DNA of 64,000 bases, taken from positions 3,524,001 to 3,588,000 of the forward strand of contig NZ_LR134352.1 of NCBI RefSeq assembly GCF_900637185.1, in the 5' to 3' direction. A model generated the notes under the pieces. That model saw nothing but the letters and a program-made list of their open reading frames with translations. It ran no database searches and was not told the origin of the DNA. The position numbers were made by a program, and so were the translations under genes. This document shows positions 2,197 to 36,818 of the stretch, in pieces. The first letter of the stretch is position 1. Each line of letters begins with the position of its first letter. Source of the stretch: Nocardia asteroides. Its GTDB lineage: Bacteria; Actinomycetota; Actinomycetes; Mycobacteriales; Mycobacteriaceae.

Positions 2197-2418
2197 TGTC
2201 ACTCCTCCGGGAATGGGAATGGTGTGATGCTGCGCCCCGAAATCGGGCTGCGGTGTTTCGAACGCCGAATACCGGCATCAAGTGTCCGCTCCTCGGCCGA
2301 GCCGGTCAACACCGCGCACGATCGCGTGACGCGTCGCTGCGCGGGCGATACTGTTTAGAAACCGCGATCGGCGGTACCGCCACGAGAGAACGGACTTGCC
2401 GGAACAGAGGAGGACTTC

Positions 2419-2790
2419 ATGGGTTCGCAGGACATCATCGCGCAATTGCGGCAGGACATCACCACCGCGGGCGACGCCGGCGACGAAGCGACCGTGGCAC
2501 GGCTACGCGGGGAATTGGCGACCGCGCTGCGGGAAACCGGCGCCGGGTCGGCCGCGACCGTCACCGAGGACGACCTGCGGGCCCTGCTCGACGCCACCGC
2601 CGCCGACGCGCGACTGGTGCTGTCGGAAGGCAAGGTTGGCGTCCATTCCGGCACCGACTACGCCGGTGGCGGGCTGCTCGTCATCACCCGTGCCGACCTG
2701 CTCGACCGCGTCGGCTCACCGGCCGACGACCGCAAGCTCACCGAGACGGCGGCGTTGCTCGACACCGACATCCGCTTGCTCGGCGCCTGA
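2419..2790 (+). CDS. Hypothetical cytoplasmic protein
   Basis: This 123-residue protein has no signal peptide or membrane segment. The first half is predicted helical and charged (MGSQDIIAQLRQDITTAG onward); the second half contains a short beta-like stretch around GGGLLVITRADLLDRVGS. A strong ribosome-binding site (GAGGAGG) precedes the ATG at 2419. Codon use matches neighbouring genes, so it is probably real. I do not recognise its family and assign no function. It lies upstream of the NTF2-like gene, with 49 bp and a KstR-type operator between them. Confidence 0.65.
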   Translation: MGSQDIIAQLRQDITTAGDAGDEATVARLRGELATALRETGAGSAATVTEDDLRALLDATAADARLVLSEGKVGVHSGTDYAGGGLLVITRADLLDRVGSPADDRKLTETAALLDTDIRLLGA

Positions 2791-2815
2791 CCGGGCGGAA
2801 TAGCCCCACCGAATC

Positions 2816-2829
2816 TAGAACGCGTTCTA
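2816..2829. promoter_or_regulatory. KstR-type operator
   Basis: TAGAACGCGTTCTA is a perfect 14-bp palindrome that matches the TNNAACNNGTTNNA motif known for KstR, the TetR-family repressor of cholesterol catabolism in mycobacteria and rhodococci. It ends 10 bp before the start codon of the NTF2-like gene, a position suited to repression. A near match lies before the zinc-ribbon/thiolase genes at 33145-33158. The regulator itself is not in this window, so the assignment rests on the motif. Confidence 0.7.
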
Positions 2830-2839
2830 CACTGCGGCG

Positions 2840-3322
2840 ATGGACCTTGTCGCGATCGAGGAGATCAAGCGCCTCAAACATCGCTATTTCCGCACGCTCG
2901 ATCTGAAGCTGTGGGACGAGTTCGCGGACTGTCTCGCCGAGGACATCTCCGCGCGCTACGGCACCCAGGCCATGGACAAGCCGCTGCATTACGACAACCG
3001 CGCCGATGTCGTCGCGTTCATGGAGCAGAACCTCGGGTCCGGGATCGTCACGGTGCACATCGCCAACCATCCCGAGATCGAGGTCGACGGCGAGACCGCG
3101 ACCGGATCGTGGGCCTTCGAGGACACCGTGCTGGTCCCGGCCGCCCAGCTCCAGATCCGGGGTGGCGGATACTATTCCGACACCTATCGCCGGGACGCCG
3201 ACGGCGTGTGGCGCATCTCCTCGACCCGCTACGAGCGCATCTACGAAGCGGTGACCTCCCTGGCGGACACTCCGAGCTTCAAGCTGATCGCCAACCGCTG
3301 GGATCCCTCGCTCGCCCGCTGA
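2840..3322 (+). CDS. NTF2-like (SnoaL-type) protein, possible steroid-pathway isomerase or dehydratase
   Basis: This 160-residue protein has the layout of the NTF2/SnoaL-like superfamily: an N-terminal helix (DLVAIEEIKRLKHRYFRTLD), a WDEFADCLAEDI helix, then the curved beta-sheet with GSWAFEDTVLV, GGYYSDTYRRD and WRISSTRYERIY. The superfamily includes ketosteroid isomerase-like and bile-acid dehydratase-like enzymes and many proteins of unknown function. A KstR-type operator directly in front suggests expression with sterol catabolism genes; this is inferred from the motif, not from the protein. It sits alone, followed by a convergent TetR gene 19 bp away. Confidence 0.82.
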   Translation: MDLVAIEEIKRLKHRYFRTLDLKLWDEFADCLAEDISARYGTQAMDKPLHYDNRADVVAFMEQNLGSGIVTVHIANHPEIEVDGETATGSWAFEDTVLVPAAQLQIRGGGYYSDTYRRDADGVWRISSTRYERIYEAVTSLADTPSFKLIANRWDPSLAR

Positions 3323-3341
3323 CCGGCGCGTCCCGACACGG

Positions 3342-3947
3342 TCAGCCGTTGTGCCCGGCCTCGGCCGCGGGCGTCGGCAGATCGAGAATCGCGACGACCG
3401 TCGCGTGCACGCGGCGCTCGAGTTCGCCGGGCACGCTCGCGTCGAACTTTCCGTGCAGGTACAGGAAAGCCAGGCCGTGCACCATCGACCACAGCGCGGT
3501 GGCGAGAGCTTCTTCGTCGGAGTCCGGAAATGCTTTCCGCACAATCGATCTGACGTATTCGTGAATGGCGGTGGTGGCCGCCAGCCGGTCGGGGTCGGAC
3601 GGATCGCACGGTTCGGCGAACATGGCGCGGAACAGGCCCGGCCGGTTCAATGCGAAGCGCACGTAGGCGACGGCGATCGCCGTGAAATCCTCGGCAGTGG
3701 CCGGGGCGGTTCCCGCCGCCGCCAATTCCATGGCCAGGTCGCGGTATCCCACCGCGGCCACCGCCGACAGCAGCGCGTCGCGATCGGCGAAATGGCGGTA
3801 GGGCGCCGCGGTGGACACCCCCGCGCGCCGTGCGGCGGCACGCAGTGACAACTCGGTGGCGCCGTTCTCCTCGAGCAGCTCGATCGCCGCGCGGACCAGC
3901 GCGGTGGGGAGGTCGCCGTGGTGGTACGGCGTGTTCGTCGTTGCCAT
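3342..3947 (-). CDS. TetR/AcrR family regulator with WHG-type C-terminal domain
   Basis: This is a 201-residue transcriptional repressor. The N-terminus has the familiar YHHGDL opening, then the helix-turn-helix (LSLRAAARRAGVSTAAPYRH, roughly residues 33-52). The C-terminal ligand domain contains LWSMVHGLAFLYL, the Trp-His-Gly pattern of the WHG subgroup. A near-perfect palindrome lies directly upstream of the start, so autoregulation is likely. The target beyond itself is uncertain; the divergently placed region only holds a LysR remnant on the same strand. Confidence 0.9.
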   Translation of the reverse strand: MATTNTPYHHGDLPTALVRAAIELLEENGATELSLRAAARRAGVSTAAPYRHFADRDALLSAVAAVGYRDLAMELAAAGTAPATAEDFTAIAVAYVRFALNRPGLFRAMFAEPCDPSDPDRLAATTAIHEYVRSIVRKAFPDSDEEALATALWSMVHGLAFLYLHGKFDASVPGELERRVHATVVAILDLPTPAAEAGHNG

Positions 3948-3957
3948 GTCCCCAATT

Positions 3958-3979
3958 TAACAAGTGTCGACACTGCTTA
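3958..3979. promoter_or_regulatory. Probable TetR operator upstream of the 3342-3947 gene
   Basis: This 22-bp element is built on the perfect core AGTGTCGACACT (3963-3974) with TAA/TTA flanks; 18 of 22 positions are symmetric. It begins 11 bp upstream of the TetR start codon, as expected for an autoregulatory operator. Binding is inferred from symmetry and position only. Confidence 0.55.
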
Positions 3980-4018
3980 CATCGTGGGTAACTGCGGGTT
4001 CCTAGGTGGGGGCGTGGA

Positions 4019-4759
4019 TCAGTGGAGGACCGCCGGGGGATCGGTGAGCGCGGCGTCGAGGAACCGGCGAAGGGATCGAGAGGGTTCCGGCGTGCGCCGC
4101 CAGCCGAGATAAAGGGTCGACGGCGGGATGTCGGGAAGCCGCCGGTAGACGACGCCGGGATGGGGTGCGCGATGGGTGGCCAGCGCCGGAACCGCGCCGA
4201 TACCGCGGTCGGCGGCGACGAGCTCGATCCACTCGTCGAAGTTGCGGCAGGTGACCGTCTCCCGGTCCGGATCGGGATCCGGCCAGCAATCGGGGGTGGT
4301 GGTCCCCGATTCGGTGTTCACGACCAGCGGATAGTGCGCGAGGTCGGACCAGCGCAGCTCCGGGGATCGGGCGAGCTCGGAGCGGTTCGACACCGCCAGT
4401 ACCCGTTCCTCGGTCCCGATCGGCCGCCAGCGAATCGATCCGTCGGCGCGTCCGACGGTGCGGGCCACGGCGATGTCGATCACGCCGTTGCGCAGGTCCG
4501 TGGCCGGGTTGTCGCTGCGGACAAGGCTGACCTGGGCACCGGATCGCTCGTAGCGCGCCCGCGTGGCGGCGAACCAGTCGGTGGGTAGCAACCAGGAGAA
4601 CCCCACCCGCACCTGCGTCAGCGACCGCATCTCCGCCTGCAGTTCGGTCAGCTCGGTCAGGATGGCGCGGCTGCGCCGCAGGAACAGCTCGCCGTCGGCG
4701 GTGGGTGCGGCGCGTCGCGCGGAACGGTCGATGAGGGCGCAGTCGAGAATGCGGTGACC
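4019..4759 (-). pseudogene. LysR-type regulator lacking its DNA-binding domain
   Basis: About 246 codons of a LysR-family regulator are readable on the minus strand. They begin inside the last part of the helix-turn-helix domain (ILDCALIDRSARRAAPTADG), continue through the linker helix and the whole co-inducer domain (VRVGFSWLLPTDWF, IDIAVARTVGRAD, RGIGAVPALATH), and end with PPAVLH. A normal LysR protein is near 300 residues; the missing 45-50 are the DNA-binding helices. Upstream, the frame only continues as antisense of the MFS gene that begins at 4760. The gene therefore looks truncated by a deletion that joined it to the MFS start, and it can hardly work as a regulator. Confidence 0.75.
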
Positions 4760-31488: not shown

Positions 31489-32691
31489 TCAGCGGGTGGC
31501 GATGATGGCCGAACCGTGGCCGAACAGGCCCTGGTTCACCGCGATGCCCGCGCTCGCGTTCTCGACCTGACGGCCGTCGGCCTCCCCGCGCAACTGCCAG
31601 GTCAGCTCGCAGACCTGGGCGATCGCCTGCGCCGGGATCGCCTCACCGAAACAGGCCAGCCCACCGCTGGGGTTCACCGGCACGCTGCCACCCAGGGTGG
31701 TCGCGCCGCTGCGCAACAGCTTCTCCGCGCCGCCCACCTCGCACAGCCCGATGTCCTCGTACCAGTCCAGCTCGAGCGCGGTCGACAGGTCGTAGACCTC
31801 GGCGAAGGACATCTCCGACGGACCGAGCCCGGCTTCCTCGTAGGCGGCGTGCGCCACGGCGGAACGGAACTCGCGCGCCGGTGCCGGGACGGCCACGGCG
31901 GAGTCGGTCGCGAAATCCGGCAGGTCGAGCACCGTTTTCGGGAAGGTCGGCGTCACCGTCGACAGCGCCCGGATGCGGACCGGATCGGCGATGCCGTGCT
32001 TGCGCGCGTACTCCATCGAGGTCAGCACCACGGCGGCGCCGCCGTCGCTGGTGGCGCAGATGTCGAGCAGCCGCAGCGGGTCCGACACGATCGCCGACGC
32101 GGCGACCTCCTCGGCCGCCACCTCCTTGCGATAGCGCGCATACGGGTTGTTCAGGCCGTGCCGGGAGTTCTTCACCTTGACCGCGGCGAAGTCGTCGAGC
32201 GTGGCACCGTGCAACGCCATCCGCCTGCGGGCGTACAGCGCGAAGTAGATCGGGTTGGTCGCGCCGAGCAGGTGGAAGCGCAGCCAGTCCGGGTCGTCGC
32301 GGCGTTCGCCACCGACCGGCTGGAAGAAGCCCTTCGGGGTGGTGTCCGCGCCGACCACCAGCGCCACGTCGCACAGTCCGGCCAGGATCTGGGCGCGCGC
32401 GTTGGCGATGGCCTGGGCGCCCGAGGCACAGGCGGCGTAGCTGCTCGAGATCCGCGCGCCGGTCCAGCCGAGCGCCTGGGCGAAGGTGGCGCCCGTGACG
32501 AAACCGGGGTAGCCGTTGCGGATGGTGTCGGCGCCGGCGATGTAGCCGACGTCGCGGTGGTCGATCCCGGCGTCGGCCAGCGCCGCGCGGGCCGCGACCA
32601 GCCCGTATTCGACGAAGTTGCGGCCCCACTTGCCCCACGGGTGCATGCCCGCGCCGAGGACGGCGATATCGCGATTACTGCTCTCGGTCAT
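31489..32691 (-). CDS. Thiolase-family lipid-transfer protein (steroid/acyl-CoA aldolase-type)
   Basis: This 400-residue thiolase-fold protein has the nucleophile Cys88 in ISSSYAACASGAQAI and the C-terminal GGLACFGEAIPAQ and GSAIIATR segments. Sequence features (MHPWGKWGRNFVEYG, YRKEVAAEEVAASAIVSDPL) place it with the SCP-x/Ltp group rather than with acetyl-CoA acetyltransferases. Ltp proteins with a DUF35 partner perform retro-aldol cleavage of steroid side chains. The DUF35 gene directly upstream overlaps it by 17 bp, and a KstR-like operator lies before the pair, so a role in sterol or branched acyl-CoA breakdown is well supported but not proven. Confidence 0.88.
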   Translation of the reverse strand: MTESSNRDIAVLGAGMHPWGKWGRNFVEYGLVAARAALADAGIDHRDVGYIAGADTIRNGYPGFVTGATFAQALGWTGARISSSYAACASGAQAIANARAQILAGLCDVALVVGADTTPKGFFQPVGGERRDDPDWLRFHLLGATNPIYFALYARRRMALHGATLDDFAAVKVKNSRHGLNNPYARYRKEVAAEEVAASAIVSDPLRLLDICATSDGGAAVVLTSMEYARKHGIADPVRIRALSTVTPTFPKTVLDLPDFATDSAVAVPAPAREFRSAVAHAAYEEAGLGPSEMSFAEVYDLSTALELDWYEDIGLCEVGGAEKLLRSGATTLGGSVPVNPSGGLACFGEAIPAQAIAQVCELTWQLRGEADGRQVENASAGIAVNQGLFGHGSAIIATR

Positions 32692-33130
32692 CGACCGGCC
32701 TCCACATCCACACGGTGTGCTCGGTGTCCTCGTCCTCGTACAGCACGCCGAGGGTCAGCTCGACCGGCATGCCGACCGCGAGGTCGTCCACCGTCAGCCC
32801 CCGGACCACCTGGCCCAGAACCACCATCTGCTCCACCTCGAGTTCCACGGCCGCGACGATGTACGGCACGAACGGCTCGGGCGAGACGTAGGGCGGTGGC
32901 GGTTTGTACCTGGCATCGGCGTACGACCAGATCCGGCCGCGGGTGGAGAACAGGTATTCGGCGAGTTCGGAGCCGTCCTTGGGGCCGGTGCACTGCGGGT
33001 TCCGGCAGGCCAGGGTGTTCCGGGGGAAGTACGGCGTGCCGCAGGCAGTACAGCGACTTCCCTTCAGACGCACCGCGCCGTCGTCCGCGGTGAACCAGTC
33101 GTCCACGGCAGGGCGTTGTTCTTTCTGCAC
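32675..33130 (-). CDS. DUF35 zinc-ribbon/OB-fold partner protein
   Basis: This 151-residue protein has a zinc ribbon with Cys27-x2-Cys30 (SRCTACGTPYFP) and Cys42-x4-Cys47 (ACRNPQCTG), followed by an OB-fold (GRIWSYADARYKPPPPYVSP, MVVLGQVVRGLTVDDL). Proteins of this kind bind CoA-thioester substrates and form complexes with thiolase-like aldolases. The start GTG at 33130 follows the KstR-like operator by 14 bp, with no good ribosome-binding site, so the mRNA may be leaderless or nearly so. It is coupled to the thiolase gene (17-bp overlap). Confidence 0.85.
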   Translation of the reverse strand: MQKEQRPAVDDWFTADDGAVRLKGSRCTACGTPYFPRNTLACRNPQCTGPKDGSELAEYLFSTRGRIWSYADARYKPPPPYVSPEPFVPYIVAAVELEVEQMVVLGQVVRGLTVDDLAVGMPVELTLGVLYEDEDTEHTVWMWRPVDDREQ

Positions 33131-33144
33131 CTGCCCGACGGTAT

Positions 33145-33158
33145 AGGAACACGTTCTA
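33145..33158. promoter_or_regulatory. KstR-like operator before the DUF35/thiolase genes
   Basis: The + strand reads AGGAACACGTTCTA, which matches TNNAACNNGTTNNA at all fixed positions except the first base. It lies 14 bp upstream of the DUF35 start. With the perfect copy at 2816-2829 it suggests that two loci of this window belong to a sterol-catabolism regulon. Confidence 0.6.
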
Positions 33159-33262
33159 TTTTGGGGCCGGATTCCGCTTCCCCGGCGGCGAGGCGCGGGT
33201 ACGGTGGGACCGGATTGAGGATGCGCCGACATTCTCGAGTCGAGCTGGAGTACCACAACGCG

Positions 33263-34027
33263 ATGGACACCGAACTCTGTGAACCGCAGTCGATCCGCAA
33301 TGCCACGATCATCGGGGACCCGGAGGAGACCGCGCGGCTCGTCCGCCGCCTGACCCGCCGTGCCGCGGCCACCACCGCGGGCGCCGAGGTCACGCTCGCG
33401 TGGACGACGGATCACGCCGATCACACGATCCGCCTCACCGAGCTGTCGAGCCACGCGCCCCTCGCGACACTGGAGCGGGCCATCCGGCTGGCCGACGGAG
33501 TGGTCGTCGTCATGAGCGCCGCGGTGCCACGCGCGCCCCGGCTCGAGGCGATCCTGCGCGTCGCCGACGATCATCAGGTCGCCCGCCTGTGCCTGGTGAC
33601 CGGGCTCGAGCACCCCGGCGCCGACTTCGACCGCTGTGTCGGCACGATCGCGCACACCCACGGCGCGGTCCCGCTGACGGTGCAGATTCCGCACGGCCTC
33701 GGCGCCGAGTTCACCGGCGTCATCGATCTGGTCCCGATGTGGGCACTGGAACCGATGGCTGCCGAGTTCTACGGCCACCACTGGCCGATCGCCGAACAGC
33801 ACTACCGCGCCCTCGTGACCGCGGTGACGAATCAGGACGCCCCGCGCCGGCTCCCGCCCAGCCGGATGTACGACCGCGTCCGCCACCTCACCCACATCGG
33901 CGACGCCGCACCGGTCCTGTGCGACGCGGGCGGGCGTAACGACATCGCCCCGTTCCTGGACGCCGTCATCCGCTATCTACCGTCCCCGCTGCACGTCTGC
34001 CAGCCGGAACACGCCCTCGACTATTGA
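33263..34027 (+). CDS. Stand-alone degenerate EF-G G-domain protein
   Basis: This 254-residue protein aligns by eye with domain I of translation factor EF-G and nothing else. Matching segments in order are IRNATIIGDP near the start, LERAIRLADGVVVVM (EF-G VERSMRVLDGAVMV), VARLCLVTGLEHPGADFDRC (VPRIAFVNKMDRMGANF), GAEFTGVIDLVPMWAL (EEHFTGVVDLVKMKAI) and APVLCDAGGRNDIAPFLDAV with IRYLPSPL. The nucleotide-binding motifs are all lost: the P-loop position reads GDPEETA, DTPGH reads LTELSSHA and NKMD reads TGLE. Domains II-V are absent. It therefore cannot be a working GTPase. Start ATG 33263 has GGAG 12 bases upstream; ATG 33221 is an alternative. Role unknown. Confidence 0.8.
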   Translation: MDTELCEPQSIRNATIIGDPEETARLVRRLTRRAAATTAGAEVTLAWTTDHADHTIRLTELSSHAPLATLERAIRLADGVVVVMSAAVPRAPRLEAILRVADDHQVARLCLVTGLEHPGADFDRCVGTIAHTHGAVPLTVQIPHGLGAEFTGVIDLVPMWALEPMAAEFYGHHWPIAEQHYRALVTAVTNQDAPRRLPPSRMYDRVRHLTHIGDAAPVLCDAGGRNDIAPFLDAVIRYLPSPLHVCQPEHALDY

Positions 34028-34339: not shown

Positions 34340-36818
34340 CTACACCGGGCGGGTGACGTCGTCCCCAGTATCCTCCTCGACCGATGCGGCGGGCCCGCCC
34401 ATCGTCTCGGCGACCCCGCCTCCGACCGGCGCGGCAGCGCCGACGGTCGGCGCCGGTGCCGGACCGGACGACGCCGCCAGTTTCCGAACGCAGGCGGCGG
34501 CCGTCTTGAACAGCGGTTGTTTCGACGCCGGGTCCCATTCGGTGCGCGTGAGCTCGTTCGCGGCCCGGTCATGGTCGCCGCCGGTGTCCCAATAGCCGTA
34601 GTGGAAGGGCAGGAACAGAACTCCCGGCCGGATACCGCTGATCCGGGCGTGGGCCCGCACCGCGCCCCGCCTGGTCTGGACTTCGAGCAGGTCGCCTTCG
34701 CCGATCGTCAGACGGTCCGCGTCGTCCTCGGACATCTCCACCCACACCTGCGGGGCGGCCGCGTCCAGCTGTGCCGCCCGGGCTGTCTTCGTCCGGGTGT
34801 GGAAGTGGTACAGGGTGCGCCCGGTGATCAGCGCGAACGGGAATTCGGTATCGGGCCTCTCGGACGCGGGCAGATAGTGGGCGGATTTCAGCATCGCCCG
34901 ACCGGCCGGATCGGTGCGGCGGTACGCGGCGGCATCGTACGGTTCGCCGGTGATCAGGTCCTTGCCGTAGGACTCGCAGTAGTCGGGGTCGCTCCAGAAA
35001 CGGCCGTCGGCGTACAGGCGTTCGGTGCCCGCGGGATGCTCTGCGGTGCACGGCCATTGGATTCCGGAACCGCCGCGCAACGCGGCGTAGGTGAGTCCGG
35101 TGTAGTCGCACGGGCGGCCCGCGGAACACCGCTTCCACGCCTCGAAGGCCCCCTCTGCGTCATCCCATGACACCAGCGGCGCGCCGTCCTTGTCGCGGAA
35201 GCCCATGCGATGCGCGAAGTCCAGGAAGATGTCGAGGTCGGGCCGGGCCGCACCCGGTGGCTCCACCGCTGTGTCCGAGAGATGGACGGTGCGATCGGCA
35301 TTGGTGAAACATCCGGTCTTCTCGCCCCACGCCGCCGCGGGCAGCACCACATCGGCCAGCGCGGTGGTCTCGGTGGGGAAGATGTCCTGCACCACCAGGA
35401 AAAGGCTGTCGCGGCCGAGGATCGAGCGGATCCGGCCCAGGTCCGGGAGCGACGCGGCCGGGTTGGTGGCGCTGACCCACAGCATCCGCAACGTGCCCTG
35501 TTCGGCGTTGTCGATCATCTGCATGGCATGGGTCGGCGCGCTGTCGTGTGTTATCCGCTCCCGCTCCACATTCCAGAGTTCGGCCAGCTGTGCGAGATGA
35601 GTGTCGTTGGCCCAGTTGCGGAAACCGGCGATGTCGCCGTCGGCACCGCACTCGCGGGTGTTCTGCGCCGTCGGCACCGTTCATCTGCAGCACACCGCAC
35701 CCCGGCCTGCCGAGCATGCCCCGGATCAACTGCAGATTGTTGACCTGCACGGCCGCGGCCGTGGCCTGATGTGACTGGTAGAAGCCCTGCAGCACGGTGG
35801 AGAGCAGGCGCTGGGCGCCGGCGAGGATCGCCCCGGCCGCGCGGATGTCGTCGGCGGCGACCCCACAGAGGGGTGCGACGACATCCGGTGCGTACCCGGC
35901 CACCGTGGCGCGCAAATCGTCGTAGCCCACCGTGTGCCGCGCGAGATAGTCCAGGTCGACGCCGCCACGGACGATGACCTCGTGCAGCAGCGCGTTCAGC
36001 AACGCGACATTGGTTCCCGGCAGCGGCGCCAGATGCACCGCGGCCCGTTCGGCCACCGCCGTCCGTCGCGGATCGACACAGAGGAGCAGGGGAGGATCCG
36101 TGCCCGCGAGCCGGTCCAGGATGCGGGCCCACAGGACGGTCTGGGTCTCGGCCACATTGTGTCCGAACAGGGCGATGACATCGGCGTGGTCGACATCGGT
36201 GTAGGAACCGGGCTGCCCGTCACAGCCGAAGGACTCCTTCAACGCCTCGGCCGCGGTGGCGGTGCACAGGCGCGTGTTCCCGTCGACATGGTTGGTGCCG
36301 ATGCCCGCCCGCGCGACGATCCCGAGCGTGTAGTACTCCTCGAGAAACAACTGGCCGGAGGTGTAGAACCCGATCGAGGACGGCCCCTCCGCCGCCAGCA
36401 GCGCCTTGGTGTGCTGGGTGATCCGGCGCATGGCGGTATCCCAGTCGGTCTCGACCAACGCACCGCCGCGCCGGATCAGGGGGCAGGCGAGGCGTTCCCG
36501 GGAATGATTGGCCTGCCAGCCGAACAGGTCCTTCGGGTCCAACCTGCCACGATTGACCCGGTCGGCCGCGCGGCCGCGCACCCCGACGATCCGGCCGTCG
36601 GCGACCGCGATGTCGAGCGCGTCGCCGTTGGAATGCAGCACCGAGGCCGACTGCACCCAGCGGTCGACGCCGGCGGGCTCGACCCCGTCGAGATATCTGT
36701 CGACCCGCACCGGCCATTCCTCGCCGGGCCCGTACGGCGTCCGCTTCCCCCACGGCTGTGCGATCCGGTCCCGTCGCTCCATATCGGCGACGTACCCCGG
36801 CGGGCGCGACCGAACCAT
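34340..36818 (-). pseudogene. Molybdopterin oxidoreductase (nitrate reductase/formate dehydrogenase-like) with a frameshift
   Basis: The gene is read in two frames. The first (36818 to about 35676) covers VDRYLDGVEPAGVDRWVQSA, GQLFLEEYYTLGIVARAGI, DGNTRLCTATAAEALKE, GHNVAETQTVLWAR and GRPGCGVLQMNG. The second (about 35674 to 34340) continues with PTAQNTRECGADGD and ends with the C-terminal molybdopterin-binding barrel (ALITGRTLYHFHTRTKTARA, FLPFHYGYWDTGG). The family continues MNG with QPTAQN, so two bases appear deleted at 35675. The N-terminal cysteines that hold an iron-sulfur cluster in related enzymes are Ser, His and Asp here (SASVLHSNGDALD). Start ATG 36818 or 36782. Either a broken gene or a sequence error. 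Confidence 0.85.

Follow-up and report, generated by a model that had tools for sequence, protein, structure and literature searches.

Few proteins are as conserved as the translational GTPases. Elongation factor G (EF-G) contacts the ribosome through its P-loop, switch I and domains II to V, and the gamma subunit of the initiation factor aIF2 is a translational GTPase as well. According to the available part of PMC6996347, the DUF35 protein Trf acts on aIF2, and in the accessible portion of PMC12329534 DUF35 subunits are described as holding thiolase-fold enzymes, and two solved systems show a third protein held as well. The survey of bacterial translational GTPases in PMC1780047, as far as its available text goes, dropped by design short proteins and those without intact G1/G3/G4. 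Cases of the kind reported here may thus have been filtered out before.

We analyzed a stretch of 64,000 nucleotides of the Nocardia asteroides genome (hereafter the window), in which one gene encodes a protein resembling domain I of EF-G. We refer to it as pseudo-EF-G (PEF).

An EF-G domain I protein without GTP motifs

The gene and the regions of its product discussed below are the following.

33263..34027, + strand: pseudo-EF-G gene (PEF), 254 aa, with the EF-G domain I fold and without P-loop or switch I (open reading frame, homology, model)
33302..33334, + strand: former P-loop region, residues 14-24, ATIIGDPEETA; the family consensus NVTIxGDPxET replaces the EF-G P-loop (residue numbers converted to DNA)
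33563..33595, + strand: family signature ADDHQVARLCL, residues 101-111 (alignment of 100 rows)
33977..34024, + strand: C-terminal signature LPSPxxVCQPEHxLD(Y), residues 239-254, stopping where domain II of EF-G would start (alignment)

The open reading frame at 33263-34027 is intact, and domains II to V are absent from its product, which ends after 254 residues at the stop codon 34025-34027. PEF is homologous to EF-G domain I (match to a PDB EF-G, E 2e-21) and is 36-37% identical to the two EF-Gs of its own genome. Its predicted model contains the whole domain I fold, G' included, and superposes on EF-G. The P-loop has been deleted, not just altered by mutation: strand 1 of the model ends at residue 18 and helix 1 starts at residue 20. 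Walker A ([AG]x4GK[ST]), DxPGH and NKxD were found in none of 120 family sequences (the PEF of the window and 119 others), compared to 35/35 EF-G controls. Among 100 aligned members picked at less than 90% mutual identity, D102, D103, Q105, A107, R108 and C110 were invariant in every row, and the LPSPxxVCQPEHxLD tail was invariant or nearly so. This tail aligns with the first strand of what we take to be domain II of EF-G, indicating that PEF stops at the border between domains I and II.

No Pfam or NCBIfam model matched by PEF reached its cut-off, with 21.9 versus 26.5 bits for Pfam GTP_EFTU and 66.1 versus 659.4 bits for the NCBIfam EF-G model, and a PADLOC defence search gave zero matches for PEF and the two proteins encoded next to it, a DUF35 protein and a thiolase. 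Most other family members among the matches listed carry a precomputed PF00009 tag, and database names for the family are 'GTP-binding protein', 'elongation factor G' or hypothetical; the first two mislead. It is close to certain that PEF is an EF-G-derived protein without GTP motifs. The original prediction, a stand-alone EF-G domain I protein that has lost these motifs, is thus confirmed as an observation, including the structural superposition. It also knew of no described family of this type, and our searches of open-access papers listed no description of it. With a G-domain fold, lost nucleotide motifs and a conserved protein, PEF would be a pseudo-GTPase, predicted from its sequence neither to bind GTP or GDP nor to hydrolyse GTP.

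A search admitting proteins of 0.55-1.75 times the query length returned 178 matches at E <= 0.01; among the best 120 of these, the query's own included, all organism-bearing names were Nocardia, and many entries were nameless. PEF was present in 22 of 35 same-genus relatives (split by contig ends in one), in 27 of 401 genomes sampled across the family (1 genus of 31) and in 9 of 397 sampled across the order (1 genus of 85). A scan of species genomes gave at least 80 loci, of which 31 were Nocardia loci with PEF. The 49 others, from Streptomyces and other genera, matched at 33-36% over residues 37 to 245-249, and the five that we opened all encoded full-length EF-G (ORFs of 708-772 aa).

In a tree with 10 members, PEF formed a single, fully supported clade on a long branch. 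The data did not support descent of PEF from the second EF-G (724 aa) that Nocardia itself encodes, with which PEF does not nest. The PEF profile scored five Streptomyces/Actinomadura-type EF-Gs at 176-184 bits versus 139-152 bits for Nocardia EF-Gs, the five having come from the best scan matches and PEF having an atypical composition as well as a long branch. When single sequences were scored instead, the top PEF match within its own genome was the second EF-G (92.9 versus 80.9 bits). This 724-aa protein, 68% identical to the first EF-G, is encoded at 2232-4406 (- strand) of locus L060, with the first EF-G and an EF-Tu-like gene some 4 kb away. More than one EF-G was found in only some of the Nocardia searched.

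The divergent operon and its control region

PEF lies next to two genes on the other strand, with the following elements in between.

31489..32691, - strand: lipid-transfer thiolase, 400 aa, NCBIfam NF004715 (PRK06059), 716 bits against a cut-off of 424 (profile match)
32675..33130, - strand: DUF35 protein (zf-ChsH2 and OB_ChsH2_C), 151 aa, divergent from PEF (domain matches)
33145..33158, no strand assigned: KstR-type operator AGGAACACGTTCTA, other strand TAGAACGTGTTCCT (compared with Table 3 of PMC1995591)
33198..33205, + strand: -10-like element of PEF, GGTACGGT (GTAC(C/G)GT or a near variant)
33245..33250, + strand: Shine-Dalgarno-like CTGGAG (GGAG count across loci)

The thiolase and DUF35 genes overlap by 17 bases at the end of the DUF35 gene. 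We collected 73 PEF loci (67 distinct), one of them cut by a contig end. In all 72 with the region in view, the DUF35 gene is divergent from PEF, with 101-153 nt between match starts. In a first comparison of 22 loci (the window and 21 others), the thiolase and PEF clusters were present in 22/22 and the outer neighbours mostly differed; the simple gene caller used there picked the DUF35 gene in 18, and PEF was filtered out of one row. A first survey found PEF in 13/14 genomes with the thiolase and in 0/7 without it. In the family survey the same-genus figures were 27/32 versus 0/19 (p 9e-10, a value that treats species as independent, which they are not, and leaves out G024, which has a 65% paralogue only). 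No PEF was detected next to 14 more distant pairs of DUF35 and thiolase genes, namely 12 of other genera, whose thiolases are 67-74% identical, and two Nocardia paralogue pairs. Beyond PEF in the window, a molybdopterin oxidoreductase-like gene (named by eye) occupies 34340-36818 (- strand) in two overlapping frames, 35160-36818 and then 34340-35677, suggesting a frameshift near 35.68 kb, from a sequencing error or in a broken gene.

A -10-like element of the GTAC(C/G)GT type precedes PEF in 66/66 distinct loci, compared to 0/7 Nocardia-type loci that lack PEF; the pattern, two variants included, was composed after inspecting the loci. GGAG occurs 4-16 nt ahead of the PEF start in 57 of the 66. 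In the nine others the -10-like element is near the ATG, an arrangement compatible with a leaderless message. A second KstR-like palindrome (A[AG]GAACACGTTCCA) occurs 23 nt downstream of the first in L045, L052, L062, L071, L073, L122, L127, L129 and L139, mostly the loci whose PEF message looks leaderless.

Every one of the 72 PEF loci that show the region carries the motif AGGAACNNGTTCTA, 31 or 32 nt away from the start of the DUF35 match. The operator 14-mer of the window is identical to the M. tuberculosis Rv3531c/Rv3532 site, TAGAACGTGTTCCT, which is EMSA positive in the part of PMC1995591 available to us (Table 3). The 14-mer deviates from TnnAACnnGTTnnA in one of eight core bases and therefore escapes a search with the strict pattern. 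Genome-wide, TnnAACnnGTTnnA gave 57 sites versus 15 for the reversed control. KstR itself is encoded in the genome (NF033703, 334.9 bits, cut-off 280), with TAGAACATGTTCTA between its gene and a divergent acyl-CoA dehydrogenase-like gene (matches below equivalog cut-offs only), and HsaA/HsaD adjoin another KstR-type palindrome. The window holds a perfect KstR-type palindrome, TAGAACGCGTTCTA, at 2816-2829. Elsewhere in the genome, AGGAACACGTTCTA recurs at 2609-2622 of L106 between short-chain dehydrogenase-like and alpha/beta hydrolase-like genes (named by eye), possibly another target of the same regulator.

A KstR-like motif was also found, at other positions within 230 nt upstream, in 9/14 of the more distant pairs (9/12 of other genera and 0/2 Nocardia paralogue pairs). 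One such pair (L094) adjoins a gene that by eye is polA. Rv1629 is presumably polA, and we take Rv1627c-Rv1628c to be orthologues of the DUF35-thiolase pair. Rv1627c has been described as predicted to be necessary on cholesterol, and the available Table 3 of PMC1995591 also lists a KstR site at Rv1628c/Rv1629 (EMSA not done).

With operator and KstR gene both present, the PEF locus is predicted to belong to the KstR regulon, with KstR repressing PEF and sterols inducing it. The operator lies right at the DUF35 start, and it is retained in all seven PEF-less Nocardia-type loci; it may thus serve the thiolase side only. In a broad sense, the role of PEF is likely linked to this KstR-type divergon.

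Selection, loss and remnants

By simple counting, uncorrected for high G+C, the 40 closest PEF pairs from 41 loci had dN/dS values of 0.15-0.48, and the median over 805 pairs was 0.43, compared to 0.07 for the adjacent thiolase. Selection on PEF is thus purifying but loose. None of the 65 distinct loci with a PEF match of at least 230 residues has a stop after the ATG, the single stop among them (in L065) lying upstream of it; the count took in near-full-length matches, and match-shortening frameshifts had no separate tally. Two further distinct loci, L062 and L134, have partial matches near contig ends. Because the frames are stop-free and dN/dS is well below 1, a decaying pseudogene is ruled out as the whole story. 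This is in agreement with the earlier view of a clean frame conserved as a protein, and orthologues with an intact frame are indeed present in related Nocardia.

The seven Nocardia-type DUF35-thiolase loci without PEF come from six same-genus genomes and from G073, which belongs to another genus. They are scattered in the tree and force at least six changes (the PEF-less label also covering two outgroup tips), and other genes lie upstream of their DUF35 gene. In two of them a short remnant of PEF persists in place, namely VADDHQVAR in L086 and VPVLCDAT in L083. These words occur in 73/120 and 6/120 PEF members, respectively, and in no other PEF-less record (1.6 Mb); DNA words of the L083 scar gave zero match to four relatives. 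No DUF35 position changes clearly with the loss of PEF, and two columns do so weakly. Most simply, PEF is older than the divergence of these Nocardia and was then lost several times while the enzyme was retained. Since several species lost PEF and kept the enzyme, PEF is an accessory.

Candidate roles and related systems

From the computed homology, fold, P-loop deletion, purifying selection, promoter-like element, divergent linkage and KstR-type operator, we tentatively propose that PEF, as a protein without GTPase function, partners the DUF35-thiolase enzyme rather than acting as a ribosome factor. An EF-G domain I, cut at the domain I/II border and having lost its nucleotide site, would have been kept in Nocardia as a protein-binding module. 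Presumably co-produced with the sterol-type acyl-CoA operon, PEF might act as a non-catalytic partner, either a third subunit or a regulator of assembly or activity. It could dock on the DUF35 subunit through its invariant ADDHQVARLC segment and C-terminal tail, as do the third proteins of the HMG-CoA synthase/DUF35/thiolase and PhlABC complexes. These complexes and the Trf precedent, together with gene order and the shared control region, make a DUF35-bound PEF a reasonable proposal.

Divergent linkage in 72/72 loci, phyletic dependence on the thiolase, the KstR context and the DUF35 precedents count in favour of such a partner. On the other side, a dN/dS of 0.43 against 0.07 for the thiolase is unusual for an obligate subunit, the DUF35 protein does not clearly respond to PEF loss, and shared inheritance of neighbour genes could yield co-occurrence without contact. 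The KstR context is itself weakened by an operator that possibly belongs to the thiolase side and by the motif-less pairs (both Nocardia paralogue pairs and 3/12 of other genera). The fast evolution and repeated loss of PEF are more in keeping with an accessory regulator than with a core subunit. They also keep room for a more modest history, in which an EF-G fragment settled in the divergon, is translated and persists through linkage or mild selection, its role being minor or dispensable. The low constraint relative to the thiolase, the scattered PEF-less loci and the coding scars in L086 and L083 all point that way; however, invariant positions in ADDHQVARLC and in the tail across 100 divergent rows, 65 loci without a stop and a promoter-like element in 66/66 argue against it, and we consider it unlikely.

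The original prediction had further proposed a ribosome- or EF-G-binding protein or a decoy. While its conserved, intact domain I protein without a GTP site stands, we found no pointer to this function. A factor that uses kept EF-G surfaces to attach to the ribosomal stalk, to EF-G or to some other factor and tunes translation during sterol use would be in line with the G' region seen in alignment and model. But the P-loop, switch I and domains II to V are gone, and the gene is bound to a lipid-type operon under a KstR-type operator; the context lends the ribosome no support, and such a role seems improbable. We regard as least probable, and very unlikely, that the emptied G-domain cleft holds an acyl-CoA or steroid and relays its presence to the thiolase complex or KstR-type control. 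The KstR-type context would suit such a sensor, and fusidic acid, a known EF-G ligand, is steroid-like; however, it binds between domains of EF-G and with help from the ribosome, PEF lacks that site, and we identified no ligand site in PEF.

The proposed partnership with the DUF35-thiolase enzyme suggests that a piece of the translation machinery has been reused in metabolism. A more doubtful extension is that in Nocardia a sterol-type DUF35-thiolase enzyme has taken up the G domain of a translation factor, emptied of its nucleotide site, as a functional component, be it scaffold, regulator or ligand-reading subunit; in the boldest version of this, a steroid or acyl-CoA would be read in the old G-domain cleft.

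Compared to known systems, PEF is closest to domain I of EF-G (TIGR00484) with G', which it resembles in sequence and in the whole domain fold. It differs in lacking P-loop, switch I, DxPGH, NKxD and domains II to V, in having its own signatures and in its separate long branch. Like the pseudoGTPases known from p190RhoGAP domains and degenerate septins, as described in the portions of the literature available to us, it has a G fold minus GTPase features, but those are eukaryotic and come from other GTPase families, whereas PEF is bacterial and derives from a translational GTPase. CysN (CysN/NodQ in the available text of PMC1780047) is likewise a case of a translation-factor type G domain put to use in metabolism; it retains GTPase activity, and PEF has no GTP motif. 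Ltp2-ChsH2, Sal-Shy, HMG-CoA synthase/thiolase and PhlABC are DUF35-thiolase enzymes, and the window likewise has DUF35 and thiolase genes. In two of those complexes DUF35 holds a third protein, and the accessible portion of PMC12329534 mentions no G-domain protein. What is new here is the context of PEF, a divergent DUF35-thiolase operon with a KstR-type operator in between. Trf, a DUF35 protein that in the available part of PMC6996347 works with the translation-factor complex aIF2, recalls the DUF35-PEF pairing; it is archaeal, releases mRNA from aIF2 and is presented there without mention of a thiolase partner, whereas the DUF35 gene of the window is paired with a thiolase. Overall, the PEF family suggests that EF-G domain I is open to reuse beyond translation, as a protein module, and, if our reading is true, would represent a bacterial EF-G-derived pseudo-GTPase serving catabolism.
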